From: Gimesia sp. | GTDB taxonomy: Bacteria; Planctomycetota; Planctomycetia; Planctomycetales; Planctomycetaceae | Assembly: GCF_040219335.1 (NCBI RefSeq) | Contig: NZ_JAVJSQ010000022.1 | Coordinates: forward strand, 62,001 to 126,000 | Length of the DNA: 64,000 nucleotides | Direction: 5' to 3' | In this document: one piece after another, positions 7,664-25,467 of the stretch | Numbering within the stretch: the first letter of the stretch is position 1 | Layout: the number at the start of each line of letters is the position of its first letter | The notes under the pieces: model-generated | Database searches by the model: none | The model's input: only the letters and a program-made list of their open reading frames with translations | Told to the model about the DNA's origin: nothing | Program-made: the position numbers and the translations under genes

Positions 7664-10600
7664 TTACAGAGACGGCACTTGGGGCAGGTTGAGATTATCC
7701 AGGAGCTTCTTACGTTCCTGTCGGTTATTCCTGTCCTGCTTATAATGGTGTGGCAGTACGCGCTGATGATAAGTCTCCAGAGGGCGAACCAGGGTCCGAT
7801 CCAGAACTTTCTTGCGCAAAGACCACTCCTGTTCAGAAATCCCCGCATTTTCCCGGATCTCTTCCATGGTCTCAAACGCCAGGTCAATCGCGGACATGCT
7901 GAGTTCGATATCATGCAACGCCTGCTTCGACGTCACTGGCGGAGCCTGGGAACGATTGTCCCAACGGGTCTTCAAATGCTGTAACAGGCCATTCAGGTGA
8001 TCCCACTGCTGCCCGGTCTCCTGGAAGAGTTCCGATTTCTCTGCAGCGAGTTCAATCGCCCGGACCACCGAGTTGATCGAACGGTCAGAGCCTGCGCCGT
8101 AATTGATTGCGTGCAGACGATGAGCAAATTCCAGCTCCGGTGGAGCATCATCAGATTTTCTATATAGTTCAGCGACTTCATCGTGCATGAAGTAACTTAT
8201 CATCGGGTCATAGATCGAAGTAAAGCGGGAAACGCGCGTAATCAATTCTACCGAGGGAGAAGGTTTCGCCATCGCATCGGATAGCGCCTTGAAGTAGAGC
8301 ATCCGGCGTTTATCTTCGTTGTGGATAAAATCATTCTCATTCAGCCCTTCAGCAGCGACCTGTCTGATCAGTGATCGAGGGTTGTCAGTGATCTGTTCTT
8401 TGGCCGGCTTGCGATATTTCCAGTACTGATCCGGATATTGCACCATCAGTTTGTTCTGGGCTGTGACTTCGGAGAGTCTACGGAGCACGATCGGGTCGTC
8501 CTGCTCATTATGCATCCAGTTAATCAGTCGTTCGGTCCGCTGATCACGGCTCACCATCTGCTGAACTTCTTCCCGCTTCAATCCCCAGCGCATCATTTCG
8601 TAAGGCAGAGTAAATGCAAATTGACCTGTCGCTGAACTGTTTACCGAGGTCGGCTGATCTGCCACCATCTGCTGGAGAGACTCATTGGAGTAGGCGGCCA
8701 GGTTCAACAGAACTGACCAGTCCCAACCAACCTGTGCCAGCGTGCGACGAACTTGGGGTGCCTGCAGGCGATCCATCAGACCGGGGCGAATAAAACCTTC
8801 TTCGGAGTTGGTCGCCAGGAACAGAGTTTCTCCGTTCGCAATCTCAATAGCCATCACCTGTTTGAATTCCGACAGAAATGTGCGGGCAATCACCCGCAGA
8901 GGTTGTGCGCCAAAGTCAATATGCTGGAAACGCTGGCAGAACATACCCCCTGCTTTCAAATGCCGGGAGACATTTCGATAAAAATCAGCCGTATACTCTG
9001 ACTGAGATTGAGCGACTACCGACTGCACGGGATTGCTGATAATCAGGTCATAAGTAGCAGTCGTTTTTGCACGCGACGCCATGGCCAGAGCGACAGGGGA
9101 CTGCACCAGAGTGACGCGGTCAGAATCCAGTGCCGAGATCGAATTACGAGTAGCAATTTCATCCCGATATAACTGAATCAGTCCCGGATCATGTTCCAGA
9201 CAGGTGATATGCTGCACGGGAAAATCCAGGCTGGAGTTAAGACTCACTCCCGATCCCAGTCCCAGGAACAACACATCGGCGGGGCGGTCATGCAACGTTA
9301 CCGGTATCACAAAGGGCATCAGTTCCCCTGTTGTATGGGGGCACAGCCCTGCATCGGTAGTGGTGACTCCTACAGGCAGCCCGCTGCGGCGAATTTGCAG
9401 CTGGTTTTCATGATAGGACCAGACAGTATATGTTCCGTGGGGTCCTTCTACTTCTGACAGACAGCGACCTTCGTCCATGTAGGGGAGCAGATCCGGTTTT
9501 AAGCCGTAACGGAGTCCCGTGAATGTATTCGTAGAAAACAGAAGTTTCGTAGAACGATGCGGATCATAATTATTGTACCCGGAGTTAAGGACAACCAGCA
9601 GGACCAGAGCACAACTGACACCAGCTGTCTGCCAGCGTGAGCGGGGGAAGCGGAACTGGACACCCCAGATCAGAAGTGACAAGCAGGACAAAGCCCCCGT
9701 AGTCACCAGAGACAGTGTTTTGAGATCCACGCGTGCGGTACCAAGCAACCAGGACCCACAGAGCAATCCTGCCAGCAAACAGAAAGGTTGCCAGACCGGC
9801 AGACGATAGACGGAAGTGTTGTCAGTGCTGTCTGACTGACGTGTAATCGACAGCTTCATCCAACCACCCCAGCAGAAGCCCAAAGGTGCCAGGAAGAGCG
9901 TCAACAGCCCGCCGCGTATCACCGCCAGCAGAAATGCAAATTCGATGTAAGCGTTGGCATACAGCATCCAGTTCACCAGGAATGGGAACAGTGCCAGCGC
10001 CGCTGCTCCGATCAATGCAGCGCCCAGGGTTAAGCGCGATGCGAGTTGTGAACCTCGCGCTGCACTACGCGCTTCGATCCAGAACCAGGCTGCACTGACG
10101 CCTGCGAGCAACGCCGCCCAGGCAGTCACTTTCAAATAGAGTGAGTCCGGATACAACTGGAAGACGACACGCTCAATAATGACAGTCAGAAAACCGGTCG
10201 CCAGGCTGACCAGGAAGCCGCTGGCAACCAGCAGTCGGGAATGTTTCCACTGCATACTTCCATTTTTGGAATCGGTTTTGGCGTTCAACGAACTGTCAGT
10301 GGTCATAGACTTCAGCCAGCTGATCATACCGGGCAAGTATCGAGTGGCCAGCTTGCGCAACCAGGGACTGATTACAATCAGCAGAGCGGTGCCTGCTGCG
10401 ATCCCTAATGTGAGATTCCAGCCCAACGCGGGAACCAGGCAATAGACTGCCGACAGCAATGCGAGTGTCACTCCGGTGAGAAAACGTGCAACAGGGGAGA
10501 CCAGGGGGGCACTACCTGCGGACTGCTGTTCCAGTGAAGTTCTGACTGAGAACCAGCAGATGCGGGCTGTCCAGAAAACAACAGGCAGCAGGAGAACCAT

Positions 10601-11017
10601 GGCAGAAAGTGTCATCAGTCCCGTTAAAAAGACCGGGTTAGAAATCTGATCCAGTGAGATCAGATGTAGGATCTGGTTGAACTGCCAGAGCAGTATTGGA
10701 AAACAAAGTGTCCAGATTGAAAACAGAGCCAATGTGATGCCGGTCCGAAATCGCTTCTGCTTCCAGAGCGTCGTTTCAGATTCGCGATTGACATTTTCTG
10801 ATACGGTTGAAGGTAATCCCAGCCAGATTCCCATGACCGTCGCCAGACCGATGCCTGTAACGACAGACAGATGCTCTCCAACCAGGGTCTGAAAACGCTG
10901 AATACAGGCGAGCAGAAAGAGACCGCAAATCCACCCGGACAGGAAAGCGAACCCTGATCGCGTCTGAGCAAGAGTGAGAGTGAATTTGACTAGATTTTGA
11001 GCAAACGAACGTATCAT
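7664..11017 (-). CDS. Polytopic membrane protein with spermidine-synthase-like domain
   Basis: 1117 residues. About 1-480 carries roughly twelve hydrophobic membrane segments. Residues 510-740 form a Rossmann-type domain of the spermidine-synthase family, with the SAM/dcSAM-binding glycine loop VLFLGLGSG (582-590) and an acidic strand end (LEHD, 607-610). The C-terminal 370 residues are soluble, helical and charged. Where aminopropyltransferases carry the catalytic D-S-x-D-P motif, this protein has IISNPVQ (about 659-665), so the usual catalytic aspartate appears absent. Known relatives are membrane-fused spermidine-synthase homologues of unproven activity. The ATG at 11017 has AAGGA upstream. 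No polyamine gene is adjacent; aguBA lies 19 kb away. Confidence 0.75.
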   Translation of the reverse strand: MIRSFAQNLVKFTLTLAQTRSGFAFLSGWICGLFLLACIQRFQTLVGEHLSVVTGIGLATVMGIWLGLPSTVSENVNRESETTLWKQKRFRTGITLALFSIWTLCFPILLWQFNQILHLISLDQISNPVFLTGLMTLSAMVLLLPVVFWTARICWFSVRTSLEQQSAGSAPLVSPVARFLTGVTLALLSAVYCLVPALGWNLTLGIAAGTALLIVISPWLRKLATRYLPGMISWLKSMTTDSSLNAKTDSKNGSMQWKHSRLLVASGFLVSLATGFLTVIIERVVFQLYPDSLYLKVTAWAALLAGVSAAWFWIEARSAARGSQLASRLTLGAALIGAAALALFPFLVNWMLYANAYIEFAFLLAVIRGGLLTLFLAPLGFCWGGWMKLSITRQSDSTDNTSVYRLPVWQPFCLLAGLLCGSWLLGTARVDLKTLSLVTTGALSCLSLLIWGVQFRFPRSRWQTAGVSCALVLLVVLNSGYNNYDPHRSTKLLFSTNTFTGLRYGLKPDLLPYMDEGRCLSEVEGPHGTYTVWSYHENQLQIRRSGLPVGVTTTDAGLCPHTTGELMPFVIPVTLHDRPADVLFLGLGSGVSLNSSLDFPVQHITCLEHDPGLIQLYRDEIATRNSISALDSDRVTLVQSPVALAMASRAKTTATYDLIISNPVQSVVAQSQSEYTADFYRNVSRHLKAGGMFCQRFQHIDFGAQPLRVIARTFLSEFKQVMAIEIANGETLFLATNSEEGFIRPGLMDRLQAPQVRRTLAQVGWDWSVLLNLAAYSNESLQQMVADQPTSVNSSATGQFAFTLPYEMMRWGLKREEVQQMVSRDQRTERLINWMHNEQDDPIVLRRLSEVTAQNKLMVQYPDQYWKYRKPAKEQITDNPRSLIRQVAAEGLNENDFIHNEDKRRMLYFKALSDAMAKPSPSVELITRVSRFTSIYDPMISYFMHDEVAELYRKSDDAPPELEFAHRLHAINYGAGSDRSINSVVRAIELAAEKSELFQETGQQWDHLNGLLQHLKTRWDNRSQAPPVTSKQALHDIELSMSAIDLAFETMEEIRENAGISEQEWSLRKKVLDRTLVRPLETYHQRVLPHHYKQDRNNRQERKKLLDNLNLPQVPSL

Positions 11018-11312: not shown

Positions 11313-12926
11313 GTGAAACGGAAAACCCAACGCCCAATGGCCTCTCCCCCAGTCACCAGACTGAGCAGCCAACCAGATGGTCCATGGTTGCCATCCCAAT
11401 TCACGCATTCTCTGCTTTTCTTCTGCCTGACCTGGGTCGCGGGTTTCTCTGCGTCGAATGCTGCCGAGACCAGTTATCTGGTTACAGCGAAAACCGCATC
11501 CAGTTCGATTCAGACAGATGAGCTGAAATCTCATATCGAGTTCCTGGCCAGTGACGCACTCGAAGGACGCGAAGCAGGTACCCAGGGTGGCCAGGCGGCT
11601 GGAACCTATATCCGCAATTTTTTACAGAAGCACGGTGTCCAACCAGGTATGGGTGAAGAAGGCTACTTTCAGGAGTTCGATGGGGGATTTCGAAATATTC
11701 TGGGAATCATTCCCGGTAACGACCCCAAATTAAAAAATGAATACATTGTTATCGGGGCTCACTACGATCATGTGGGGTACGGCAAGCCCTCGAACAGTCG
11801 GGGTGGGGTTGGTCAGATTCATAATGGAGCTGATGACAACGCCAGCGGAACTGCAGCTCTGCTGGAAATCATTGAAGCCATCTCCGAGCATAAAGAGCTC
11901 CCCCGGCGTTCTTTCCTCTTTGCCTTCTGGGATGCAGAAGAAATGGGGCTGTTAGGCTCCCGACACTGGATGAATTACCCGAGTGTTCCACTCGAACAGA
12001 TCCAAATTTATTTCAACCTGGACATGGTCGGGCGTCTCAAAAAACAACCGCTGACTCTATTTGGATCCCGTTCTTCCATCGGCTTGAGATCCTGCACAGT
12101 CAAATGCAATCATCGCGACACGGATCTGAAAATCAAATTCGACAGTGCAATCCGTCCCGACAGCGATCACTGGCCTTTCTACAAGAAGGGGATTCCCTTC
12201 CTGATGCTGCATACCGGAAAGCATGACGACTATCATCGTCCCGAAGACGATGCGTTTAAAATCGATTACGAAGGCACCCAGAAATGTGCCCAGTTGTTGA
12301 CCCAACTGGTATTTGAATTTGCTATGCAGGATAAAAAGCCTGAATACCGTTCAGCAGATCAGGATATTCTGGCTGGGATCGACCAGGAAACTAGAATCAC
12401 GACACAGGAGCCGCCCCGGTTGGGAGTGGCCTGGAATGCAGACAAGTACGAGAAAGGGCACCTGATGATTACCCAGGTTCTGGCCAGTTCAGCAGCGGAT
12501 GCCGCCGGCCTGAAGGTGGGAGATGAGATCATTAAAATTGACGGACGATCGCCTGTAGAAGCACCGGGCTTCGATGCACTGGTGAGAAGCTCCCCTGAAA
12601 AGATCAGGCTGCAGATCAAGCGAAAAAACGAAGAGGAACTACTGGAAATCCCCGTAGAACTTTCAGGCAATCAACTCAAACTGGGAATTCAATGGCAGAC
12701 TGATGAAACCGAACCCGAAGTCATGGTGATCTCGAACATTATCAAATCATCACCTGCAGATCTTGCCGGTTTGAAAATCAATGACCGGATCTATGAGATC
12801 AGCGGACGGTCGTTTGAGAGCAGTGATGAATTTCGCGAACTGGTAAAAGATCTGCCTCTGCCTCTAAAACTGCAGGTCGAACGCGAGGGACGACTGCGGA
12901 GCTTTGAAGTTCAATCAATGAGATGA
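11313..12926 (+). CDS. Exported M28-family zinc aminopeptidase with two PDZ domains
   Basis: Up to 537 residues from a GTG at 11313; an ATG at 11337 is an equally plausible start and neither has a strong ribosome site. A hydrophobic signal region (about 31-51) precedes the peptidase. M28 zinc ligands and catalytic residues are recognisable: AHYDH (149-153), GADDNASG (172-179), DAEEMGLLGS (207-216), LDMVG (236-240) and the late histidine in DDYH (305-308). Two PDZ-like domains follow (about 368-445 and 455-530, both with the AGLKxGD/AGLKxND loop). It probably trims peptides in the periplasm, with the PDZ domains guiding substrate. The last 16 bases overlap the end of the convergent next gene. 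Confidence 0.85.
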   Translation: MKRKTQRPMASPPVTRLSSQPDGPWLPSQFTHSLLFFCLTWVAGFSASNAAETSYLVTAKTASSSIQTDELKSHIEFLASDALEGREAGTQGGQAAGTYIRNFLQKHGVQPGMGEEGYFQEFDGGFRNILGIIPGNDPKLKNEYIVIGAHYDHVGYGKPSNSRGGVGQIHNGADDNASGTAALLEIIEAISEHKELPRRSFLFAFWDAEEMGLLGSRHWMNYPSVPLEQIQIYFNLDMVGRLKKQPLTLFGSRSSIGLRSCTVKCNHRDTDLKIKFDSAIRPDSDHWPFYKKGIPFLMLHTGKHDDYHRPEDDAFKIDYEGTQKCAQLLTQLVFEFAMQDKKPEYRSADQDILAGIDQETRITTQEPPRLGVAWNADKYEKGHLMITQVLASSAADAAGLKVGDEIIKIDGRSPVEAPGFDALVRSSPEKIRLQIKRKNEEELLEIPVELSGNQLKLGIQWQTDETEPEVMVISNIIKSSPADLAGLKINDRIYEISGRSFESSDEFRELVKDLPLPLKLQVEREGRLRSFEVQSMR

Positions 12927-13420
12927 GATTTCCATTCGACCTGGTGTGCATCAAGACCGGATTGTGTCAGTTCCTCTTTGAGAGTCTTTTCCGGCACCAC
13001 GCGTGCAGAGCCGGTACGATAGACGCGAACTTTGACACCATCCTCGTCCCCAGTAGCCCGCCCTGCCAGCGTGAGAATGGTTTGAATATCAGCGGGCTGA
13101 TATTTTTCGCGGGGTTGTGAGTCGGCTTTGACCTTGTAACTGCGATCGTCGATCAAAATATCGAGGACCTGTAAGGGGAGCTCTGCCAGGGTTTTCTGTT
13201 CTCGTGGTTCCGGTTGGATTAAAACCGGGATCATATCTGAGTCAGTAGACGCCATTACGGAGGGTGAACTCTCTTCCGCCTGTGGTTCAGCCTTCTCTTC
13301 TCCCTCACCTGGACCGGAATTAATGCCGGGCGTTAATCCGATGAACTGACCCAGAATGATCCCCAGAATTAAAACGCCTCCCCCGGCATACATCATTCGC
13401 TTTGGTTGCTTGCGCATCAT
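12911..13420 (-). CDS. Small membrane-anchored protein of unknown function
   Basis: 169 residues. A single N-terminal membrane segment (about 9-32) is followed by an acidic Glu/Ala/Ser linker and a C-terminal domain of about 85 residues with no motif I recognise. Two adjacent ATG codons (13420 and 13417) follow AGGAC; either can start. Topology suggests a cytoplasmic N-terminus and a periplasmic C-terminal domain. It overlaps the end of the M28 peptidase gene tail to tail by 16 bases. Function unknown. Confidence 0.65.
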   Translation of the reverse strand: MMRKQPKRMMYAGGGVLILGIILGQFIGLTPGINSGPGEGEEKAEPQAEESSPSVMASTDSDMIPVLIQPEPREQKTLAELPLQVLDILIDDRSYKVKADSQPREKYQPADIQTILTLAGRATGDEDGVKVRVYRTGSARVVPEKTLKEELTQSGLDAHQVEWKSHLID

Positions 13421-13508
13421 TCGGTCCTGTCAGTGGGTGAGAGAAAATCGCATTGTATCGAACCACACCTCTGATACGAAATTCAGCTGTAAGATGAGCA
13501 CAGAGACA

Positions 13509-14948
13509 TCAGGGTTGAGATTTCAGTTTTTGCATCAGGTCCAGGATCACTGCCACAATTTTATCTGAAGCATCCAACTGGACCCGGTTGGTTCCCATCC
13601 AGGTTTCATACCCTCCCAGTTTATGCTGCTCGGGTGTAGGCAGATAACCGTTGTAACCATTCGCCAGTTCAATCGTGAAAGCATCTTCAAAAGGTGCTTT
13701 TTCTTTCAGTTCCAGACCGATTTCACAAAAGGTTTCAAAGGGGATCGCGGCAACAGTCAGATCACCAATTTTCAATGCCTGCAGTATTACGGTAATTTCA
13801 TCAGGACCTTCCAGGAGCCGCTGGACTCGCCCTGCATAATTACGCTCGTAACGATGATGCTGTTCCGCGTTCTCTGGTTGGGCCATCACCTTTTTGAAAT
13901 AAGCCTGCATTTCGGCATCGGGTTTCCGGACTTTTAACGTCAGTTCTGCATTGGCTGCACCCAGAGGAACCCAGGTCTGATACTTTACCTGCTGACAGGC
14001 TTCGGCTACTCGTCTGGCTACCAAGTCTGCTACCTGGTTCATCTTTTCATAAGCGGCCATCCGTTTGCCGGGCTTCTGGAAATTGATGTTATTGATGTCA
14101 CCACTGGTGCCGTTCGACAGCATTCCCACAAACGGAGGGTCTTCCGGCTTTGCTCCGAGCAGGGGGCCAATTTTTTCTGAAAAGATACCGAAGTAATCTG
14201 CAGAGATTTCTCCTTTCTTGACGCCCCCCACATAATGCAGAGAGTAATTAGCCAGGAGTGCCAGCGGTCGACCATCCAGCGACTGCACACTGATGAACGA
14301 GATTTCCGGATCAATGGGCCCTGCGGGTTTTACCAGAGCGGCATTGCCCCGGGGTGGATTCATTCGCACTTTGTCGACCCCACCAAATGGATTCTTACAG
14401 AAATCAGGATTTGTGGTATACCAGCGACGGTTAAAGACTTCAGAAGGTTCATCTACGCCGCCCCAGCCGATGCGTGCCGGTTCCCGATTTTCCATTGCGC
14501 AGCGAACACAATCAGCAATTCTTCGTGCCAGGAAGTCGTGATACTTGGAACTACTGGCGCGGGTAGCGGAATGCGTGTGGGTGGCCGCCATCAGAATATT
14601 TTCGGGTGGCAAATCGGTTTCTGCTTTGATGTAATCCCGGGCCGCCTGAAATACATCAACAGTGATCCCCAGATTATCACAAATCACGAAGGCAATTTTG
14701 GTTTCACCGTTATCCAGTACCAGACACCGGGCGTGCAGTTCATCGTGTACGTTTTCAGCTGGAAACGGTTTGAATCCACCGACGATATATTCTCCCAGAG
14801 GCGGCGTAATATTGCTGGTCGCAGCCCCTGCCTTCAGAACCTTATCAGCCGCAAACGTTGTGGTTGTGCTGAAAACGAACAGGAAGAAACAGAAACTGGC
14901 CCCCCAGATTCCTGCCCCTGACATAAGTCGGCTGTATTTAAACGTCAT
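13509..14948 (-). CDS. Exported neutral/alkaline ceramidase-like hydrolase
   Basis: 479 residues from the ATG at 14948, preceded by GAGGAG at good spacing; this is clearly better than an upstream in-frame start at 15047. A signal peptide (ending TTFAA) leads into the N-terminal fold of the neutral ceramidase family (PF04734): AGAATSNITPPLG near the start, a CDNLGI segment and the zinc-type THTHS motif. The family splits amide-linked lipids, but planctomycetes carry many paralogues with unknown substrates, so ceramide is not claimed. A distant paralogue lies at 57273-58520. It is followed on the same strand by the 169-residue membrane protein after about 90 bases. Confidence 0.75.
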   Translation of the reverse strand: MTFKYSRLMSGAGIWGASFCFFLFVFSTTTTFAADKVLKAGAATSNITPPLGEYIVGGFKPFPAENVHDELHARCLVLDNGETKIAFVICDNLGITVDVFQAARDYIKAETDLPPENILMAATHTHSATRASSSKYHDFLARRIADCVRCAMENREPARIGWGGVDEPSEVFNRRWYTTNPDFCKNPFGGVDKVRMNPPRGNAALVKPAGPIDPEISFISVQSLDGRPLALLANYSLHYVGGVKKGEISADYFGIFSEKIGPLLGAKPEDPPFVGMLSNGTSGDINNINFQKPGKRMAAYEKMNQVADLVARRVAEACQQVKYQTWVPLGAANAELTLKVRKPDAEMQAYFKKVMAQPENAEQHHRYERNYAGRVQRLLEGPDEITVILQALKIGDLTVAAIPFETFCEIGLELKEKAPFEDAFTIELANGYNGYLPTPEQHKLGGYETWMGTNRVQLDASDKIVAVILDLMQKLKSQP

Positions 14949-15109
14949 CTGGTCTGCTCCTCTGGATGATGGTCTGCATTTTTGTGTACGTAAGTTGCTT
15001 CCACAATTATAAGAATGAGGAACTACCAATACAACAATCTGCATCAATGGATGAAACCAGCGGGCATCATCAGTGCAGCTTTACTTTAAACCGAACCGGC
15101 AACCGGAAC

Positions 15110-16063
15110 TCAACCTTCTGAAACGGCCTGCGGATTCAAATCGGGAATGTCTTCAAAGGGGTGCCCGTTCTGCCAACCGGATTTCCCAGTCGCACGCAAA
15201 TGTTCCAGCCGACGAATGCTGATCTCACAGAAAATGGGATCCAGGTCAGCGGTCAGACAGCGGCGGCCCAGTTTCTCACAGGCAATGAGTGTTGTACCGG
15301 AATGAGCAAACAGATCGAGTACAAAGTCATCCGATTGAGAACTGGCCTGCAGAATTCGTTCGACCGATTTGATCGGCTTCTGGGCATAACATCCGGAAAC
15401 ATTTTCTTCCATGCGATAGAAGACCTGCTGGATGTCGACCCAGACATTCCCGGGCCTGATGTTTTCGGAACGGCCCCGTTCGAGGTTCTCCGTCTTTTTT
15501 CCGTTGATGTTTTTATAGTACCCGCGCAGGATCTTCGGAATATCCGTGTATTGCACTTCAAAAAATGGATTACCACGCGTGTAGTATAAGAGTTCCTGAC
15601 GTACGGCCATCCAGTTTTTCTGTGTGCCATACCCACGCTGGTTCCTCATGGTGACAAGGGACCGTGAGTCGAACAACCCGGTCTGCTGCATCATTATCAT
15701 GAACTGGGGTAAAGGTTGAAAATGCTGATTCTGATCCGCGCCCAGCCAGACATAAAAGGAAGCATCCGAACTCAGAAAGCGGGCAGACATGCGTACCCAG
15801 TCGGCACACCACTCAATAAACTTATCGATATTACGCAGATCGAAGGCGACCAGGTTATAGGGCGGGTCCTGAATCGCCAGAACAGGACGATCCTCGCCGA
15901 TCAGTCTGCTGATCTGTTCTGAATTGGTAGCATCTGCGCAGGCCACTCGATGTCGACCGGTGGGATCATCCCAGACTTCTCCCGGTTTTAATCGGCAGAA
16001 TGGTAACAGTTGTTCTCTCAAAACCAAATCTTCGTCCAGGCGCGGCAGAGGATTGTTTTTCAT
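15110..16063 (-). CDS. Orphan beta-class DNA methyltransferase (N4-cytosine or N6-adenine)
   Basis: 317 residues. The catalytic motif IV DPPYN (66-70) comes before the SAM-binding motif I, here FAHSGTT (252-258, a variant of FxGSGTT). That order marks the beta class of amino-methyltransferases. The region between them (about 100-230) would be the target-recognition domain. DPPYN favours N6-adenine or N4-cytosine methylation; the choice cannot be made by eye. No restriction endonuclease, Vsr or specificity gene is nearby, so it looks solitary and may be regulatory. The short N-terminal region resembles the ParB-adjacent linker seen in some phage-like enzymes, but no ParB domain is present. A 12-base palindrome lies 102 bases upstream of its start. 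Confidence 0.85.
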   Translation of the reverse strand: MKNNPLPRLDEDLVLREQLLPFCRLKPGEVWDDPTGRHRVACADATNSEQISRLIGEDRPVLAIQDPPYNLVAFDLRNIDKFIEWCADWVRMSARFLSSDASFYVWLGADQNQHFQPLPQFMIMMQQTGLFDSRSLVTMRNQRGYGTQKNWMAVRQELLYYTRGNPFFEVQYTDIPKILRGYYKNINGKKTENLERGRSENIRPGNVWVDIQQVFYRMEENVSGCYAQKPIKSVERILQASSQSDDFVLDLFAHSGTTLIACEKLGRRCLTADLDPIFCEISIRRLEHLRATGKSGWQNGHPFEDIPDLNPQAVSEG

Positions 16064-16858: not shown

Positions 16859-17233
16859 CTATTTCTCTTTGAGAACGAATTCACCGTAGTAGCCGATATT
16901 CGACTTATACTTTCCGCTAAGTGTTGCTCCTTTCATCAAGCCAATCCACTGGTACTGATGCCCGCGAATCGTCGCCTTACCTGACAGCTTGTATTCACTG
17001 CCTGTGGATTTAGACTGAAAGGTCGCCGCGTATTTGAAGGGATCCCCTTTAAAGAGCCCGGTAAAGGTGGCTTTCCAGTTTCCCTTGTCGTCAGACGTAG
17101 CGACGCATTTCAAGGGGCCCGTGGTATTGTACTTACGGTTATTCCATTTCCCTTCCCAGGTCCGTGTCTCCCCAGCCCGGACCTGGGAAAGGCAGAACAT
17201 CCCCAGCACTGCAATCAGCATGAATCGTGACAT
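16859..17233 (-). CDS. Small secreted beta-rich protein of unknown function
   Basis: 124 residues. A signal peptide (about 1-20, ending VRAGE) is followed by a compact region rich in Lys, Gly, Thr and aromatic residues with alternating strand patterns (TWEGKWNNRKY, GNWKATFTG, YQWIGLMKGATL). The mature part is about 100 residues, positively charged, and ends in LKEK. The pattern suggests a small beta-sandwich or barrel. No catalytic motif or cysteine pair is visible. A ribosome site (GGAG/AGGCGA) precedes the ATG at 17233. Confidence 0.6.
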   Translation of the reverse strand: MSRFMLIAVLGMFCLSQVRAGETRTWEGKWNNRKYNTTGPLKCVATSDDKGNWKATFTGLFKGDPFKYAATFQSKSTGSEYKLSGKATIRGHQYQWIGLMKGATLSGKYKSNIGYYGEFVLKEK

Positions 17234-17439: not shown

Positions 17440-18771
17440 TCAGGCACTCTTCCGCAAAGAGAAAGGTTTAGAATTCGTTTTCGGCGAAGCAGCAGTGTCA
17501 GACTGCGTCGAATTACCAGTCGCCAGATTTCGGCGGAGCTTTCGTTTGCAGTGCTGATCGTAGAGGATGCGGGAATAGCGTCCGTAATGCAGATCGAGTA
17601 CGCCGGTAGTACTGACGAAGGCTAGAATCGAACCGATGGTGACCTTGGGATAAACGCAGGCGAACCGCTTTTCATAGCGTGGTCGAAAACGGCTCTTAAA
17701 ATGTCGCAGTCCGCTAAAATCAAAAATGCTGGTCAGATAATTTTCTGCAAATCGCAGGCCGTGCCTTACCAATGCACTGTCCCCAGGCAGGCGGTGACAG
17801 TCACGCCCCAGATCCAGACAGAGCCCGGCTTGCGCAACGCCTTCCTGTTTCAGTTGCTGTAATACGAAATGAATCAGGAAGGCCATGGTACCTTTGATCG
17901 AATCCAGGCGATGCCGATAGAGTTCTGTCGCCCAGCCGGTCCCATTCAAAATGGGATTACAGATCACAAAGCCTTCGATCCGTCCCTGGTAGCGGGCAAC
18001 GAACAGGCGCCGTCGCCCGAGTGCATGATTATCAATTCGTCCCTCAAAGAAACGCATCGCTTTTTTTTGAGGTTTACGCGTCAACGATTCGTCAGCTACT
18101 TCAATGACCTCTGAGATGATATCGGACCAGTGCAGCGGATGCAGTTGATCTGGACGAACCTCGCAGGCAGTCATCCCCTGCCTGAGGCAATAATTGGTCT
18201 GTCGGCGAACCCATTCATAATCTTTTCCCTGCCAGGTGCAGGTATCCAGATCGATCATTGGGTCTTCGCCCCACTTGGTCACCTGAAACTGCATTTCCTG
18301 GAACAGGGGAAGATCTGCTTCTCCGATGTTGTGAAAAGCAATTGATAGTCGGTTCTGTTTCGCATAATCCAGAAATTCGCGTACCAGTTGAGGCTTATGA
18401 GGTTCGGGAGCAATCAGGCCTCCGCCGATGATGACATGCCGGTACCAGCGTTTGTAGGAGATCAATCCCCGTTTCCCCTGAGACCAGAACTGATCACGAT
18501 CCGGTTCGGAAGCCAGATAGGAATCAAAATATCTGCCATGCTCAAAAATAAAATCGCGCAGTTCTGTTTCTGTGTGCTCCTCGGGTAGACCCAGCGGTTC
18601 TTGATCGAACGCCTGATGCGATGGATCGATCCGCCACCGTGTACTGGCTCTTTCAACACGGTCTGCGTTCTGAATGTTCAGCTGGTCGACGTGCTGGTTC
18701 TGGCGTGCCTGCCCCTGATCGCACTGATGCAGTTGCAGGCCCTGTCTGGAATGAGAATCAGCTGACGACAT
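17440..18771 (-). CDS. DUF2156 / phosphatidylglycerol-lysyltransferase-like transferase
   Basis: 443 residues, no membrane segments. After about 60 polar residues, the body matches the double-GNAT fold of the soluble C-terminal part of MprF-type lysyltransferases (DUF2156): DFIFEHGRYFDSYLA, VSFHNIGE-like and a second GNAT half with RYQGRIEGFVICNP and TELYRHRLDSIKGTMAFLIHF. In MprF this domain moves an aminoacyl group from tRNA to a lipid; free-standing members are often uncharacterised acyl- or aminoacyl-transferases. It is the last gene of the minus-strand run ligase - carrier protein - acyltransferase - DUF2156 (84 bases after the acyltransferase). Context suggests transfer of an acyl or aminoacyl group in a biosynthetic pathway (inference). 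Confidence 0.7.
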   Translation of the reverse strand: MSSADSHSRQGLQLHQCDQGQARQNQHVDQLNIQNADRVERASTRWRIDPSHQAFDQEPLGLPEEHTETELRDFIFEHGRYFDSYLASEPDRDQFWSQGKRGLISYKRWYRHVIIGGGLIAPEPHKPQLVREFLDYAKQNRLSIAFHNIGEADLPLFQEMQFQVTKWGEDPMIDLDTCTWQGKDYEWVRRQTNYCLRQGMTACEVRPDQLHPLHWSDIISEVIEVADESLTRKPQKKAMRFFEGRIDNHALGRRRLFVARYQGRIEGFVICNPILNGTGWATELYRHRLDSIKGTMAFLIHFVLQQLKQEGVAQAGLCLDLGRDCHRLPGDSALVRHGLRFAENYLTSIFDFSGLRHFKSRFRPRYEKRFACVYPKVTIGSILAFVSTTGVLDLHYGRYSRILYDQHCKRKLRRNLATGNSTQSDTAASPKTNSKPFSLRKSA

Positions 18772-18855
18772 TTTTGTGCTCCGAAAATTAACGGACCGTG
18801 GTACAGAACATCCCCGTAAGGGAAGCAGGATTTCTAAATGAATTACAACTTCAGT

Positions 18856-19764
18856 TCAGGCAGCCCGTTTCTGTAATTCTGTATCCTCAGACTGCTGAAC
18901 CAGACTCTGCGGGTGCATCAGAAAGCCGCGCAGCGTATTGATGAACGCTGCAGACTGATTTCCGTTGACCATTCGATGGTCCAGCCGCACAAACAGGGAA
19001 GCCTGTTTACGCACGACGACTTTGTCATCCACAACGACAGCTCGCTTTTCAGTCGCTCCCATAGTGACGGCGATGCAGTAAGCATTCAGCGGGAGCGACG
19101 CGGGTTTATGGGCAATCAACGGCGGTGCACCTGAGAACCCCAGATAATTGACGAATGCCCCGGCATGATTCAGTCCCTGCTGCCAGGGCCAGATGGTGGG
19201 AGCCCGAAGCCAGTTGCCAGCCGTGAATCCTACCTTCGAGGTGTGCAGAATCCAGGAAAGTTGGAGCCAGCGTCCCAGGTTGATCAATGCGTTTTTAAAC
19301 GTCGATCCCTCTTTGGCACGTTTTCTATCACGGGCCACCTGCATCGATTTTTCTCGGGCAGATTCCCAGAAGAAACCCGCGATCTCGTCGAGTGAATAAT
19401 CTTCAGCTTTCCGCATGAAGACACAATCGACTTCGCCAGTGCTGGTCTGCAGCATCGGCATGACGATATTCACGCCCTCGTACTGGTAGACTTTTTTCCC
19501 AATCACTCGGCGGTTGACTTCTGGATGCTGTCGCAGGCTTTCAGCCACGGCACGTACCAGAACATGCGCGGGAGTGAGCATAGTGCAGTTGCGGCTGCGC
19601 TGCTCCTCCAGAAAGGACTCCAGCTCTTCGGTATCGACCGTGGTTCCCCAGACGAGCATCGGATCGCAGCGGAGTGATGTACTCGCGAGATAGGTGGTAT
19701 TGATCCAGCCAATCTCGGAGAGTGGCACCGGTTTACTCTTTGTCGCCCAATACATATCAGACAT
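18856..19764 (-). CDS. Stand-alone E2-type acyltransferase (2-oxoacid dehydrogenase catalytic-domain family)
   Basis: 302 residues. The sequence belongs to the CoA-dependent acyltransferase / 2-oxoacid dehydrogenase E2 catalytic family and has no lipoyl or subunit-binding domain. The catalytic motif near the end reads DHRMVNG (262-268): the active-site histidine (H263) is kept, but the usual aspartate of HRxxDG is Asn (N267). An insert of about 40 residues (155-200), rich in Trp, distinguishes it from E2 proteins. In this context the donor is more likely the neighbouring carrier protein or CoA than a lipoyl arm (inference). ATG codons at residue 1 (19764) and residue 4 (19755) compete; the AGG spacing favours residue 4. 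Spacing to the carrier-protein gene is 47 bases. Confidence 0.75.
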   Translation of the reverse strand: MSDMYWATKSKPVPLSEIGWINTTYLASTSLRCDPMLVWGTTVDTEELESFLEEQRSRNCTMLTPAHVLVRAVAESLRQHPEVNRRVIGKKVYQYEGVNIVMPMLQTSTGEVDCVFMRKAEDYSLDEIAGFFWESAREKSMQVARDRKRAKEGSTFKNALINLGRWLQLSWILHTSKVGFTAGNWLRAPTIWPWQQGLNHAGAFVNYLGFSGAPPLIAHKPASLPLNAYCIAVTMGATEKRAVVVDDKVVVRKQASLFVRLDHRMVNGNQSAAFINTLRGFLMHPQSLVQQSEDTELQKRAA

Positions 19765-19811
19765 CCTGTCTATTGAATTAGTAAAGCTCTGACATCCTGT
19801 TCAGAGCAGTT

Positions 19812-20066
19812 TCAGGCAGCCTTCTTCTGCTCTGCCTGTCGCTCGGCAATCAGTTGAGAAATCGTGGCGGGATTTTTAAATAAATCTGGTCTGATATCCT
19901 GAAAATCGAGTCGTACTTCAAAATCAGATTCGACGAAGACCAGCAGGTCCATCATCGTCAGGGAATCCAGCAGACCGGAATCAATCAGTTCGGTGCTGTC
20001 AGATATTGTCTGTCCGGTGACGGAGTTGAGAAATTCAACCAGTTGTTCCTGGATCGATGCACTCAT
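19812..20066 (-). CDS. Acyl/peptidyl carrier protein
   Basis: 84 residues, with AAAGGA before the ATG. The phosphopantetheine site is GLLDSLT (31-37), with Ser35 as the predicted attachment residue. This DSL motif and the helix pattern (LVFVESDFEVRLDFQDI) are typical carrier-protein features. LLDS followed by a hydrophobic helix recalls DltC-like and stand-alone peptidyl carriers more than FabD-linked ACP. It sits 31 bases after an AMP-ligase gene and 47 before an acyltransferase gene, so the ligase probably loads it. No phosphopantetheinyl transferase is in the window, so one encoded elsewhere is presumably used. Confidence 0.9.
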   Translation of the reverse strand: MSASIQEQLVEFLNSVTGQTISDSTELIDSGLLDSLTMMDLLVFVESDFEVRLDFQDIRPDLFKNPATISQLIAERQAEQKKAA

Positions 20067-20097
20067 TTATCGTGTCCTTTGCAGTTGCAGACGAAAG

Positions 20098-21711
20098 TTA
20101 AGATTCCAGATCGCCGACTGCTGCCAGTTCTGACAGCTTGACCCGATCAACTTTCATGGCGGGATTTAATGGTATTTTCTGTAAGATCCGGATCCGGTCC
20201 GGCACAAGTTGGCGTGGCAGCTGGCTGCGACAGACGCTCAGCATTTCTGCTTCCGTGAGTCCCGTACCTTCTGGAGTGGTTTCGATGTACAATGCCAGCC
20301 GCGTACCTGTATTCTTTGCTTCAAAGGGGACCGCCACCGCCTGCGACAGGGGAAAAGTTCGCAGCGCGAATTGCTCCAGATCAGCTGGGTGCACGCGATA
20401 ACCGCAAATTTTGACTAGTGAATTTCGTCGACCTTTGATGACGATTCTGCCTGACTGATCGAAGGTGGCCAGATCTCCCGTATAGAGCCAGCCGTTGTGG
20501 ATCCGTTTGCGGGTCTCTTCTGCATCTCTCCAGTAGCCCTGCATGATGTTGGGGCCACGAGCCCGCAGCTCGCCGACCGTACCTGCAGTCACACGTTGTC
20601 CACTTTCGTCCACGATCTGCAGCGTTACTCCGGGTATTGCCTGACCGATGGAGCCGTCGCTTACACCGGCGAGTTGCTCCGGTGGTACATAGGCCAAGCG
20701 AGCCGTAGCTTCCGTCTGTCCATACATGACAAAGAACCGGGCCGGATGGATGACGTCGCTGATTTCGACGGCTTGTGCATGAGGCAGGGCACCTCCGGCA
20801 ACAGACATATAACGCAGATGTGGAAACTGCGTCTGCTTAAACGAAGTTCGTTCCAGTAGAATCCGATACAGGTCGGGGACCGCTGAGAGACTGGTACATT
20901 CATGGCGGATCATTGCTTCCAGAATGCTTTCAGGAAAAATGGTATTCCCGTCCAGAATCAGGTGCGTCCCCTTTAGAAGGTGAGACTGCAGTACCGAGTT
21001 TCCAAACGCATGATGGAAAGGCAGGACGCAGATAGGCCGTTCGTCTGCCTGCAACTGCAGGTATTCCTGGATCGATTGCGCGTTAGAGATCAGGTTCCCA
21101 TGACTCAGCATGACCCCCTTGGGCATTCCACTGGAACCGGATGTAAAAAAAATCGCAGCCAGGCTCTTCTCAGAGCGTGCAACCGGATTGAGTGTATTTA
21201 CTGGAACTGTTCCAGTCGCAGATTCCTCTGAAACCATGCCCTTTACAGTAAATTCTTCCAGATCCGGATGACGCCTTAAAACCGGGGTGGTTGTAATCGT
21301 ACAGATCGCCTGCGTTGAATCCAGAATATTCTTTAGCGCGCCGCTCTCCGTATTCGCTGGAACAGGCACAACGACACCGCCAGCGAACAAGACTGCGTAG
21401 AAAGCAGCGATATACTCCACGGAATTGGGAACCAGCAGTACAACACGGCTTCCAGATTCAAAACCGGTGATCCCAGACAGCTGTTCGGAAATTTGCCTGA
21501 CCAGTAAAATCAGCTCACCATAACTCAAGGTCCGCTCAGATGTGGAAACCGCGGGTTGCTCACTATGCAGAGCTGCAATTTCCAGTAGTCGATCGACCAG
21601 CCCTGCTCCTCTGCTTTGAGAGGTCACCTCCTCCAAAAGGGTTATGGGAGAGGCTGCTAGCGGATGCTGGACCAGCCTGAGGCTGGAGAGAAAGTCGATG
21701 GGGAAGTGCAT
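20098..21711 (-). CDS. AMP-forming acyl/aminoacyl ligase
   Basis: 537 residues from the ATG at 21711 (an in-frame TTG at 21726 is less likely). It is a class I adenylate-forming enzyme: P-loop FTSGSSGMPKG, core YGQTEATA, YTGDLA, the hinge-type GRRNSLVKICGYRV and the terminal lysine region NPAMKVDR. These activate a carboxylic acid with ATP and pass it to a thiol, here most likely the pantetheine arm of the next-gene carrier protein. No NRPS condensation or carrier domain is fused to it. Substrate cannot be read by eye. It is the first gene of the operon, with its promoter in the 21712-22070 gap. Confidence 0.9.
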   Translation of the reverse strand: MHFPIDFLSSLRLVQHPLAASPITLLEEVTSQSRGAGLVDRLLEIAALHSEQPAVSTSERTLSYGELILLVRQISEQLSGITGFESGSRVVLLVPNSVEYIAAFYAVLFAGGVVVPVPANTESGALKNILDSTQAICTITTTPVLRRHPDLEEFTVKGMVSEESATGTVPVNTLNPVARSEKSLAAIFFTSGSSGMPKGVMLSHGNLISNAQSIQEYLQLQADERPICVLPFHHAFGNSVLQSHLLKGTHLILDGNTIFPESILEAMIRHECTSLSAVPDLYRILLERTSFKQTQFPHLRYMSVAGGALPHAQAVEISDVIHPARFFVMYGQTEATARLAYVPPEQLAGVSDGSIGQAIPGVTLQIVDESGQRVTAGTVGELRARGPNIMQGYWRDAEETRKRIHNGWLYTGDLATFDQSGRIVIKGRRNSLVKICGYRVHPADLEQFALRTFPLSQAVAVPFEAKNTGTRLALYIETTPEGTGLTEAEMLSVCRSQLPRQLVPDRIRILQKIPLNPAMKVDRVKLSELAAVGDLES

Positions 21712-22070
21712 ACGAAACGGTCTCAAAGTGTAAATTGCTCTCTTCAGAGAAAATCCCTCGGACGATCGTAAATCGGAGGGTAATATCCCTCATCCTTATC
21801 GGCGTTCCATGATCGTTTGCACCGCTGAATCGGTATACATACCCCCGTTTTTATCAGGACGACCAGACCAAACAACCTATTTCACCCATCCGCCCAAACA
21901 GAACGAATATCACAGGGGATTTAAAGGGATTTACACCCAATCTATTCAGAACTATCATCCGCCCGTTCAGTAAGTAGCCGATATCACTGATTGAGGCCCC
22001 TTTCACCAGCAACAATCTCCGGTTGACCTTTATATGCCATTCAACCTTTCTCTAATTCCGAGTAAGTCCC
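21712..22070. promoter_or_regulatory. Divergent promoter region of the carrier-protein cluster
   Basis: This 359-base gap lies between the divergent ligase and dioxygenase genes and must contain promoters for both arms. A TTGACC (22023-22028) sits before the dioxygenase, but no -10 box stands at usual spacing. No clear palindrome or small ORF was found. Confidence 0.45.
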
Positions 22071-23036
22071 GTGCAAGTGAAGACTTCGAATCTGGAAAAG
22101 CCACAAACCCTGCCTCTGCTCATTGAACCGGCCGAACAGGGGTCTGCCTCCCTGAGTGACCTGATTGAATTCATCTCACGGGAACGGAACTGGCTGGACC
22201 AGACTCTGCTGGAGCAGGGAGGCGTGTTGCTGCGTGGATTCACCATTCAGGAAATTGATGAATTTGAGGACGTGGCCCAGGCGCTGATTCCAGAGTTAAA
22301 GCCGTACGTCGAGGGACAGTCTCCCCGCACCAAAGTGACCGGAAACGTATATACTTCCACCGAATTTCCTGCCCAGTTTCGCATCACGCTGCACAACGAG
22401 CTTTCCTACACCAAATCGCCTCCCCCGCGGATCGTATTCCACTGTCATCTTGCTGCGGAAACCGGGGGAGAAACCCCGATCGTCGACTGCCGAAAACTCT
22501 ACCGGGAGATGCCAGCCGAGATTCTGGCGAAGTTCGAAGAACGGGGAGTCCGCTATGTCAAGAACATGCACGGGCAGGAGCGGGGGATCGGCAAGTCTTG
22601 GATGGATTATTTCGAAACCAGTGATCGGGATCAGGTCGAAGCATACCTCAAAGACAACGACATCGAATTTGAATGGACGGCCGATGGAAACCTGCGTACC
22701 TGGTCCATTCGCCCCGGCACGCTGGCCCATCCAGTTACAGGAGAAATGCTCTGGTTTAACCAGGCCGATCTCTGGCATATCACCAATGTGAATGAACGAA
22801 ACCGCGCCCAACTGCTGCAGCGGTTTGGAGAAGAAAACCTGCCGACCCACGCGTATTACGGGGATGGTTCCCCCATTACCGATGAGGATCTCGCAGTAGT
22901 TCGAAAGACCCTGTGGGAGACGGCCGTTATCTTCCCGTGGCAGCAGGGAGATGTGCTGGCCCTGGATAATTTCAGTGTCGCCCATGGCCGGATGCCTTAT
23001 GCAGGACCACGGAAGATTCTCGTTGCAATGGGATAA
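22071..23036 (+). CDS. TauD/SyrP-type Fe(II)/2-oxoglutarate dioxygenase
   Basis: 321 residues, starting at a GTG with no strong ribosome site; an ATG at 22034 is out of frame. The iron-binding triad is H108-x-E110 (in LHNELSYT) and H305 (in FSVAHGRM), with R314 as the 2-oxoglutarate anchor. HxE instead of HxD is typical of the clavaminate synthase/SyrP branch, which hydroxylates free or carrier-bound amino acids. Length is normal for the family. It heads a plus-strand pair with the methyltransferase 40 bases downstream and faces the ligase/carrier operon. Beta-hydroxylation of a carrier-bound amino acid is the best guess (inference). Confidence 0.85.
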   Translation: MQVKTSNLEKPQTLPLLIEPAEQGSASLSDLIEFISRERNWLDQTLLEQGGVLLRGFTIQEIDEFEDVAQALIPELKPYVEGQSPRTKVTGNVYTSTEFPAQFRITLHNELSYTKSPPPRIVFHCHLAAETGGETPIVDCRKLYREMPAEILAKFEERGVRYVKNMHGQERGIGKSWMDYFETSDRDQVEAYLKDNDIEFEWTADGNLRTWSIRPGTLAHPVTGEMLWFNQADLWHITNVNERNRAQLLQRFGEENLPTHAYYGDGSPITDEDLAVVRKTLWETAVIFPWQQGDVLALDNFSVAHGRMPYAGPRKILVAMG

Positions 23037-23076
23037 ATACAGAGTTTTAAATGTCTAACCACTAAGGCAGGACGGT

Positions 23077-23991
23077 ATGGCACATACAACGGCAACACCT
23101 GAGTCAGACACCGATTCTGCTGCGATCTGGCTTCCCCAGGATCTTCAGCAGCCGCTGGAAACAATGACCCGAGGACAGCGAATCGGGAACTGGCTGATCA
23201 ATCCTTACAAAAATTATCTGATCCCCGCCGGTTGGCTCAAAAGATTGCTACAGTCGAGTCAGAGCGAGTTGCTCGCGGAGACCTTCCGCCGCCCTGGTGG
23301 CTGGAGGGCTATGGAAATCCTGTACCGGAAAGATGCACCAGTCGACCTTTTGGATCGACAGGCGATCTTGGATAACCCCATTTCCAGAGCTTCGCGAAAT
23401 CGATTGCAGACGGTAACCCAAATCCTGATCGATCTGATTCAGGCTTGTCAGTCGGACGGTCCCGTCATTCTCATGGGCGTCGGTGCTGGCCCGGGTCGAC
23501 ATGTGCAGACCGCGATTTCCCGATTGCAGTTAACCGCGGATGAAGTCCACGCCCACCTGATCGACCTGGATGATGATGCCTTCGAATACGGACAACAACT
23601 GGCAGAACAACTCGAAATTGCAGACTGTATCAGCTTCCTGCAGGGAGATGCGCGTGAGATTCAGACGGTATTACAGGATGTCAAACCGAATATCGTCAAA
23701 CTGATCGGTCTCATCGAATACTTGAATGACCAGCAGTTACACGAACTGTTGACCTCACTGCATACAATCATGGTCCCGGGAGGAAATCTGGTCACGCATG
23801 GGATTCTCGATCCCTGGCATGGTGCTCCCTCTCTCAAACGGATCTTCAATCTACAGCACATCAGACGCTCAGGCGATGATGTACGAAGGATGTTGGAAAC
23901 AGTCGGATTTCGCGTCATCGACCAGGTAACCGAACCGATGGGAATCTATCCGATTGTGACCGCAGTGAAACCGGCGTCAGAGTCAGATTGA
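23077..23991 (+). CDS. Class I SAM-dependent methyltransferase
   Basis: 304 residues; AGGAC precedes the ATG at 23077. The SAM-binding loop is GVGAGPGRH (134-142), followed by HLIDLDDDAF at the second strand and GDAREI at the third. The 100-residue N-terminal region is helical and may bind the substrate; RRPGGWRAMEILY (71-83) is the most distinctive part. No zinc or radical-SAM motif is seen. It lies 40 bases after the dioxygenase gene and is convergent with the FAD protein gene (30 bases between stops). O- or N-methylation of the cluster product is inferred. Confidence 0.75.
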   Translation: MAHTTATPESDTDSAAIWLPQDLQQPLETMTRGQRIGNWLINPYKNYLIPAGWLKRLLQSSQSELLAETFRRPGGWRAMEILYRKDAPVDLLDRQAILDNPISRASRNRLQTVTQILIDLIQACQSDGPVILMGVGAGPGRHVQTAISRLQLTADEVHAHLIDLDDDAFEYGQQLAEQLEIADCISFLQGDAREIQTVLQDVKPNIVKLIGLIEYLNDQQLHELLTSLHTIMVPGGNLVTHGILDPWHGAPSLKRIFNLQHIRRSGDDVRRMLETVGFRVIDQVTEPMGIYPIVTAVKPASESD

Positions 23992-24021
23992 AGACTGTGA
24001 TGCAGGGCTGACGCCAACGTC

Positions 24022-25467
24022 TCAAATGTAATATTCGATGACGTGTTCCTCTTCGACTGACATCCTGTAATCGTGTCCCGGCGTGACCAGAGCGACATCA
24101 TCCAACAGCAACTGCGCGACACGCATCGCCTGACCACGCAGTTCGGGAACTGCTGTGGTCTCCCAGAGAGTCCCCTTCATCAACGGTCCAACAGCGAACA
24201 GGAACTCAGAGGGATTTCCTTCCGCATCAATCACCGCGAAATCAGCACCGACATCGATGCCCATATCCAGTTCGTCGGGCCGGATGAGTCCCCGTTTGAG
24301 CAGATTCTGGAACAGTGGCACACTGGTGCCAGAGAATCCACAATTGGGTCCGGTGCAATTAATGACCAGTCCCCCCTCAAGCGTCTGGGTTAACCCAGCT
24401 TTATTCTGAACATCCACCACGACCTGATCATTCTGAGACGTGATTCCTGTGATTCTGCCCCGTACTACTTTGAGGCGTCCTTCGGTAATCGCTTCCGTCA
24501 CCCGTTGATGAATCGGCTGCGCAATCCGATGTCTGATCACATTCCAGCGGGCAGCGTAACGTTTGAGAAATTCCTGTTTTTCTTCGAGGTCAAACTGCTG
24601 CCAGATCCGCTGCGTGTGGGGCCGCAGTCGATCAACGACGATGCCTGGGTTCTCACCTATCCGTTGCAGCTGCCGACAATGTTTTTCCAGTAACTGGACC
24701 AGGTTTTCGAGGCCCAGGCTCTCCGGCTCTTCTGGCAGGAAGTCGGGATATTCAATGCCGCGGAAATGAGCCTGCGGAATCATGCCGTTATGCGACACTG
24801 CGATCATATTCCCTTCCCAGCCCAGTTCGCTGAGCGTGAGAAAGACGTCGATCATCGACAATCCGGTGCCGAGCACAATGATGTCCTGATCGGGATCCGG
24901 AATCTTTTCCATCCAGTTTCCCCATGGATCTGCTGAATAGGCGGGATGCGCAAAATCTTCCCCAGCCAGTGAAGAGGGAGGCTGATTCCCTGTCGCCAGC
25001 AGCACGCGATCAGCTTCTAAAGTAGAACCATCGCGGAGCGTGATCTCAGCACTCCCGTCATAATTATATTCTATGTCGACGGCTTCATTTTCGATGACGC
25101 GGATCTCCGCCGGATGATGTGAATCAATCGGCTGCATGTAATTCGCGAGGATACTTCGCAGATAATCGCCATAGATCCGACGGGGAACATAAGTCTCACG
25201 CAGTTGCGGATCGGGCAGGTCGCTGTAATCGACGCGAGTGCGTAACCAGTCCAGAAAGTGATTGGCATGGTCGGGGACGGCAGACATGTTGCGAGCGGCG
25301 ACATTCAACAGATGTTCTTCCCGTTTCGTGCCATAAGCGACGCCACGTCCCAGTGGATAGCGGTCGTTGATCAGTTGAATGCAGAGCGGGCCGTCACTCA
25401 ATCGTGCCAGATTCACCGCTGCCATGGTCCCGCTGAATCCGCCTCCAATAATCGCCACTGTCTTCAT
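24022..25467 (-). CDS. FAD/NAD(P)-binding oxidoreductase (NAD_binding_9 family)
   Basis: 481 residues from the ATG at 25467; AAAGGAC lies about ten bases upstream, better than a frame-open start at 25533. The Rossmann loop VAIIGGGFSG (4-13) is at the very N-terminus, followed by GRGVAYGT and NVAARNMSA, characteristic of the FAD-NAD(P)-binding family that resembles ornithine/lysine N-hydroxylases. A second dinucleotide motif IIVLGTGLSMID lies in the middle. It probably oxidises an amine or carbon centre with NAD(P)H and flavin; the exact reaction is not known. Convergent with the methyltransferase gene, it is probably the last member of the cluster. Confidence 0.8.
   Translation of the reverse strand: MKTVAIIGGGFSGTMAAVNLARLSDGPLCIQLINDRYPLGRGVAYGTKREEHLLNVAARNMSAVPDHANHFLDWLRTRVDYSDLPDPQLRETYVPRRIYGDYLRSILANYMQPIDSHHPAEIRVIENEAVDIEYNYDGSAEITLRDGSTLEADRVLLATGNQPPSSLAGEDFAHPAYSADPWGNWMEKIPDPDQDIIVLGTGLSMIDVFLTLSELGWEGNMIAVSHNGMIPQAHFRGIEYPDFLPEEPESLGLENLVQLLEKHCRQLQRIGENPGIVVDRLRPHTQRIWQQFDLEEKQEFLKRYAARWNVIRHRIAQPIHQRVTEAITEGRLKVVRGRITGITSQNDQVVVDVQNKAGLTQTLEGGLVINCTGPNCGFSGTSVPLFQNLLKRGLIRPDELDMGIDVGADFAVIDAEGNPSEFLFAVGPLMKGTLWETTAVPELRGQAMRVAQLLLDDVALVTPGHDYRMSVEEEHVIEYYI

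Follow-up and report, generated by a model that had tools for sequence, protein, structure and literature searches.

Seven adjoining genes of a Gimesia sp. contig, at positions 17440-25467 of the 64,000-nucleotide stretch analysed here (the window, carried by a 7.93-Mb genome), raise the question of whether an acid ligase, a carrier protein and two transferases, facing an oxygenase and a methyltransferase, make up one biosynthetic unit, as an earlier note on this DNA had proposed, and what such a unit would produce. We lean towards the view that they include a discrete biosynthetic cassette of the bacterial family holding Gimesia and Schlesneria, built around a relay of ligase, acyl carrier protein (ACP) and a stand-alone E2-type acyltransferase to which tailoring enzymes have been added. 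The genes of this three-gene core occur together in 25 of 27 compared loci, their catalytic residues are conserved, and the seventh gene lies outside the cassette. The locus is laid out as follows:

17440-18771, minus strand: DUF2156/LPG_synthase_C aminoacyl-transferase-like protein (PF09924, E = 9.8e-42); optional gene
18856-19764, minus strand: lipoyl-free E2-type acyltransferase of the chloramphenicol acetyltransferase (CAT) fold (2-oxoacid_dh catalytic domain PF00198, E = 4.9e-17); core gene
19812-20066, minus strand: stand-alone ACP (PP-binding PF00550, E = 5.8e-5); core gene
20098-21726, minus strand: AMP-forming acid ligase (AMP-binding PF00501, E = 5.1e-72); core gene
21727-22070, no strand: intergenic region of 344 bases between the divergent transcription units
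22071-23036, plus strand: TauD/TfdA-type Fe(II)/2-oxoglutarate dioxygenase (TauD PF02668, E = 1.4e-41); tailoring gene
23077-23991, plus strand: class I S-adenosylmethionine-dependent methyltransferase (MT; Methyltransf_20 PF12147, E = 4.9e-13); tailoring gene
24022-25467, minus strand: FAD/NAD(P)-binding protein (NAD_binding_9 PF13454, E = 2.4e-39); border gene, outside the cassette
16859-17233, minus strand: small unassigned protein; second border gene, also of the backbone, directly adjoining the FAD gene in the cassette-free loci L109 and L110

All seven open reading frames (ORFs) and their domains, as named in the earlier note, were recovered in the ORF listing and the domain scan, and Pfam and NCBIfam scans agree with the names given to the cassette proteins; the ligase is taken from the TTG start of the ORF listing, and its real start may be internal. 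The arrangement described there likewise holds, with DUF2156, E2, ACP and ligase genes forming a minus-strand run with gaps of 31-84 bases that faces the TauD-MT pair across the 344-base region, in which promoters for both units presumably lie; a scan of the locus for consensus promoters and terminators gave a result at or below chance. No condensation or ketosynthase domain was detected by the domain scan in the seven proteins, in agreement with the claimed absence of a non-ribosomal peptide synthetase (NRPS) or polyketide synthase (PKS) module, and the E2-type protein is indeed lipoyl-free, PF00198 being the sole domain match in its 302 amino acids.

Neighbourhood analysis, which the earlier note had put forward as a check on its proposal, compared the window with 16 loci of other genomes and with 10 of the 20 obtained by scanning 84,980 species genomes with two peptide patterns, a scan that may miss relatives (the other 10 were set aside as duplicates), giving 27 loci in all. 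In tblastn searches at E 1e-3, E2 was found in 27 loci, the ligase in 25, ACP in 24, TauD in 17 (one of them, in L039, a 24-residue fragment), MT in 12, DUF2156 in 10 (two partial) and the FAD gene in 9. A 25th ACP, in L046, was missed by tblastn and found by blastp in the duplicate L079 (37.5%). The two exceptions to a complete core are L040/L066, whose contig begins 66 bases ahead of E2, and L077, which has E2 alone; in L045/L080, two genes stand between ACP and E2. Around this core, gene order is fluid. Among the 16 loci holding it, TauD takes three relative positions: divergent from the ligase (Gimesia, L064 and L067), divergent with one gene between (L068, L069, L074 and L075), or on the strand of E2 and downstream of it, MT being divergent (L071, L072 and L073). 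L064 has MT behind E2, on the opposite strand. Thus, the core travels together, TauD (16 of 27 loci) and MT accompany it in part, DUF2156 does so weakly, and the seventh gene does not.

Co-occurrence across 89 genomes, with E2 scored as present at E < 1e-30 and the G024 match (29%) left out, links strong E2 with TauD (Fisher p = 3.6e-7), MT (3.6e-7) and DUF2156 (1.2e-5). Because this signal is driven by related Gimesia genomes, the reshuffled loci of several lineages constitute the better evidence for linkage. TauD at E <= 1e-40 occurs in nine of the 89 genomes, eight of which have strong E2; the ninth, G041, carries a relative of 44% identity.

Several of these loci hold features of their own. 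In L041 (genome G005; positions 9795-10643), residues 1-169 of E2 are fused in frame to residues 309-443 of DUF2156 in a 298-residue frame, which shortens the E2 gene; this is either a genuine deletion or an assembly artefact, and the G005 cassette is probably impaired. Directly after DUF2156, L067 encodes a 1167-residue protein combining E1 alpha/beta-type, biotin/lipoyl and FabH-like ketosynthase III parts (12495-15998), which was rejected as a general partner, as it is found in three of 89 genomes (E <= 1e-100) and in none of the 14 with strong E2. Both L071 (12175-16396) and L073 (1926-6321) have, near the cassette and on different sides of it, a 901- or 902-residue esterase-type protein together with a condensation- or WS/DGAT-like protein, the latter below curated cut-offs.

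The borders of the cassette were defined with the help of sister genomes. The corresponding site (about 20 kb) was retrieved from four same-genus genomes without E2, namely G002, G003, G008 and G011 (G006 and G014 not included). G008 and G011 show an empty site, in which the FAD gene is followed directly by the gene of the 16859-17233 type, while G002 and G003 keep the ligase as the sole cassette gene; tblastn at E 0.1 detected no ACP, E2, TauD, MT or DUF2156 match in these 20-kb stretches of the four genomes. In all four, the FAD gene stays in place, with a YciA-type thioesterase gene on one side and the 16859-17233 gene on the other. It is present in 12 of 13 same-genus genomes (own included), with or without the cassette, and lies near the core in nine of 27 loci, every one of them Gimesia. 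Being kept at the empty and the ligase-only sites, and found near the core only in Gimesia, it belongs to the genomic backbone, and the module of seven genes is rejected, its FAD/NAD(P)-binding member dropping out; the notion of a compact, NRPS/PKS-free carrier-protein cluster survives for the jointly travelling core. The lone ligases are full-length (L107, 11823-13421, and L108, 7566-9164; 58-59% identity) and sit at the cassette site, where ACP, E2 and tailoring genes were not found. The exception among the 13 genomes is G007, which has neither an FAD nor an E2 match; there, the contig terminates in an MT fragment beside the thioesterase gene (L121, 9123-9898), the expected place of the FAD gene, complicating the simple picture of the border.

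Searching 149 relatives gave 77 E2 matches at E <= 0.001, of which 17 (own included) fall at E < 1e-30, all 17 within one family; the remainder are mostly short and located at the C-terminal motif of E2. All 20 pattern-scan loci come from records labelled as planctomycete. A sample of 392 genomes from the phylum (other phyla being covered by the pattern scan alone) yielded 18 matches at E <= 1e-12, comprising seven from Gimesia and 11 weaker ones in other families, the best of which is in G154 (E = 2.1e-32). A rough context check of these 11 (blastp E 1e-3 against predicted ORFs) gave no match to ligase or ACP in the eight contexts fetched, with the caveats that even the E2-like gene of L102 and L103 escaped the ORF picker and that L101 is a 4-kb contig. 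A wider spread of the core in the phylum is thus unsupported, and the weaker matches outside the family would represent another E2-like subfamily. On L101 (G233), the E2-like gene (2675-3592) encodes a short protein whose neighbours resemble glycosyltransferases by eye.

What could the core do? Conserved residues were counted in 24 of the 27 loci (L040/L066, L047/L061 and L077 left out; the duplicate copy used for some of L039-L046). ACP Ser35 is present in all 24, and ligase residues K203 and K525 are conserved. In amino-acid adenylation domains, the Asp of the 'FD' motif (A4) binds the alpha-amino group. The cassette ligase differs from them at this point: where NRPS enzymes carry the 'FD' motif, 23 of 24 sequences read 'HAFGNS' or 'HAYGNS' (the remaining one lacks that part), with Gly opposite the Asp in an alignment with LgrA; its substrate is therefore, judging by this motif, probably a carboxylic acid without an alpha-amino group, beta-amino acids being also conceivable. 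The E2-type protein has the E2 catalytic-domain fold, with N or D after its DHR motif. Its structure model contains two long helices (residues 125-185), and the stretch aligned to residues 122-200 has more Lys and Arg than Asp and Glu in 24 of 24 sequences (the truncated L041 included; no control set), with no transmembrane-like stretch in this region (highest 19-residue mean 1.07). The dioxygenase, which the earlier note called SyrP-type (a kind of hydroxylase active on carrier-bound substrate), shows the TauD/TfdA fold, its best solved match being At3g21360, and H108, E110 and H305 are found in 16 of 16 aligned sequences. For MT, no solved sequence relative was detected at E <= 0.1, and PHROGs returned nothing for TauD or MT.

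On the basis of the conserved residues and gene order, we propose that the ligase would adenylate a carboxylic acid and load it onto the phosphopantetheine of ACP Ser35. The E2-type enzyme would then take the acyl group from ACP, not from a lipoyl arm, and pass it to a hydroxyl or amine acceptor, a step suggested by its fold and by the tetronate precedent AbmA4. In many relatives TauD may hydroxylate, and in some the PF12147 MT may methylate, the acyl chain or the product, in an order that could differ from the one given here, and in Gimesia DUF2156 may additionally attach an aminoacyl group from an aminoacyl-tRNA. The product might be an acylated small molecule or an amino-lipid-like compound; hints of a lipid-like nature come from the condensation- or WS/DGAT-like and esterase-type genes of L071 and L073, from DUF2156 relatives beside GH3 and GNAT genes, and from the lack of an OlsB-type match or an OlsH above cut-off in the Gimesia genomes searched.

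Comparison with described systems shows where the cassette departs from them. With the E2 of 2-oxoacid dehydrogenase complexes, the E2-type protein shares the catalytic fold, together with the His and Asn known from dihydrolipoamide acyltransferases; it differs in lacking a lipoyl domain and in having the two long helices, and no E1 or E3 gene accompanies it in the window cassette. Stand-alone E2-type proteins of tetronate and spirotetronate clusters (Agg4, QmnD3, AbmA4 and AbyA4) are comparable as far as their descriptions go: in the accessible sections of PMC5819245, the 280-residue AbmA4 of the neoabyssomicin cluster is listed beside an ACP gene, as here, and is required for hydroxyl acetylation according to knock-out and mass data. 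Those systems, however, comprise a PKS, a glyceryl-S-ACP synthase, a ketosynthase and an elimination enzyme, in contrast to the AMP ligase, TauD, MT and DUF2156 of the cassette, and a scan of ten proteins of the window locus turned up no glyceryl-ACP synthase or ketosynthase partner. An adenylating ligase (DltA) and a stand-alone carrier (DltC) also characterize the Dlt system, but the cassette ACP reaches 32.9 of 68 bits with the DltC model, below its cut-off, the ligase motif is not of the amino-acid type, an E2-type transferase takes part instead, and neither DltB (MBOAT) nor DltD was matched in a search limited to the ten scanned window proteins. Similarly, the ligase scores 293 of 592 bits with the exosortase A-associated ligase model TIGR03098, below cut-off. 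The planctomycete OlsH/OlsI operon, as outlined in excerpts of PMC12493201, joins an ATP-dependent acylation with a further acyltransferase as well as a methyltransferase, and the cassette resembles it in these respects; it differs in having an E2-type transferase and no GH3 enzyme, in an ACP only weakly like that of OlsHI, and in an MT not detectably like the L130 methyltransferase. The cassette thus misses at least one defining feature of each of Dlt, OlsHI, the exosortase-A ligase, tetronate and NRPS/PKS systems. The stieleriacine route was rejected as well, its candidate genes in the available text of PMC12479983 being an N-acyl amino acid synthase, a methyltransferase, a ThiF-family gene and a nitroreductase. 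Searches of the open-licence PMC literature turned up no description of this gene set, which agrees with the earlier note's statement that no such pathway was known to it; the parts are of known kinds, and the combination is new. Planctomycete metabolite pathways are often not clustered, which limits prediction programs, as a passage of PMC12479983 points out.

An alternative that we hold possible rather than probable is an amino-lipid route standing in for OlsH/OlsI or OlsB/OlsA, in which ligase and ACP would supply an activated fatty acid, the acceptor acylated by E2 would be an amino acid or lyso-lipid, hydroxylation and methylation of the chain or head group would fall to TauD and MT, and DUF2156 would add an aminoacyl group. 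A search of 17 Gimesia genomes, two of which are less than 80% complete, gave no PF13444 (OlsB-type) match in any of them, and OlsH, above cut-off in 20 of 89 genomes, is so in none of the 55 genomes of family f1 searched, the best GH3-type match in the window's own genome having E = 6e-11, below cut-off. The best NCBIfam match of the ACP is the ornithine-lipid (OlsHI) ACP NF052616, yet its score, 35.8 of 130 bits, is weak and far below cut-off, and the methyltransferase beside OlsH in L130 (OlsG by position) gives blastp E = 1.8 against MT and 3.1 bits to the MT profile. In G043 and G044, DUF2156 relatives have GH3 and GNAT genes as neighbours, the condensation- or WS/DGAT-like gene of L071 and L073 lies close to the cassette, and a role of fatty acyl-AMP or -CoA ligases in aminolipid synthesis is still treated as open in the consulted part of a 2024 review (PMC11631085). 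Against this stands the absence of the cassette from G008 and G011 of the same genus, because of which it is not an indispensable membrane-lipid route. A bolder formulation, which strikes us as rather improbable, is that of a new carrier-protein acylation system: an E2 released from the dehydrogenase complexes would now serve an ACP that a fatty- or aryl-acid ligase loads, giving a hydroxylated, methylated and, in Gimesia, aminoacylated product, possibly by an aminolipid or N-acyl amino acid route via the acyl-AMP ligase. It is unlikely, in our judgement, that E2 instead works as an O-acyltransferase on acetyl- or acyl-CoA and thereby prepares a hydroxyl for elimination, like Agg4/AbmA4 with Agg5/AbmA5, the ligase and ACP building the carrier-bound substrate and not the donor: the E2 fold and, in the sections of PMC5819245 cited above, the pairing of ACP with a stand-alone E2-type protein would suit this, but the six cassette proteins include no FkbH-type glyceryl-ACP synthase, ketosynthase or alpha/beta-hydrolase.

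The proposed relay with tailoring must also be weighed against observations that tell against it. G004 and G010 have the core and, at the thresholds used, no TauD, MT or DUF2156 genome-wide, and TauD is absent from the remote core loci L044, L045, L046 and L076; as the core exists without them, the tailoring genes may belong to a separate pathway. In the 72 genomes from outside the genus, none of the three optional genes is significantly associated with E2 (TauD p = 0.11, MT 0.056, DUF2156 0.09). At the G040 locus (L046/L079), the carrier shows weak conservation, and since G002 and G003 keep the ligase without ACP or E2, the ligase may have another partner. E2 enzymes, moreover, usually use CoA and lipoyl. 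Some of these points favour the idea that the three-gene core is the sole unit, with TauD-MT and DUF2156 as independent neighbours that synteny has preserved in related genomes, as do the relatives of MT and DUF2156 located on other contigs in G050 and the nine genomes with DUF2156 and without strong E2. We nevertheless regard it as very unlikely, because TauD and MT occur near the core in several lineages in differing orders and on differing strands and because eight of the nine TauD-bearing genomes have strong E2. Under the preferred reading, the cassette is a small, bounded and testable gene set for which sister species offer natural knock-outs in the form of empty and core-only sites. If E2 does take its acyl group from ACP, a core metabolic enzyme would have been reused outside tetronate chemistry, and the system might bear on acyl-AMP ligases feeding aminolipid synthesis.

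The least firmly attached member of the cassette is DUF2156. Its protein matches PF09924 and solved lysyl-phosphatidylglycerol synthases (74.8 bits with 4v36), in line with the GNAT-fold aminoacyl-tRNA transferases of the MprF/VlmA type; VlmA is described as MprF-like in the accessible portion of PMC2922099. In contrast to bifunctional MprF, it corresponds to the synthase part only (111.6 of 600 bits) with no flippase part, and, unlike in MprF/VlmA systems, no aminoacyl-tRNA synthetase is found among the cassette genes. Its presence in 10 of 27 loci, together with relatives in nine of 89 genomes without strong E2, lends no support to its being an obligatory step. The context was seen for six of these nine genomes, and in four (G017, G019, G043 and G044) the gene lies beside GH3, GNAT or FemAB-like genes. 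In L115 (7367-11516) and L122 (7387-11292), from two genera, a DUF2156 relative, a GH3-type gene far below the OlsH cut-off and a GNAT gene stand side by side, possibly as an aminolipid-type trio.

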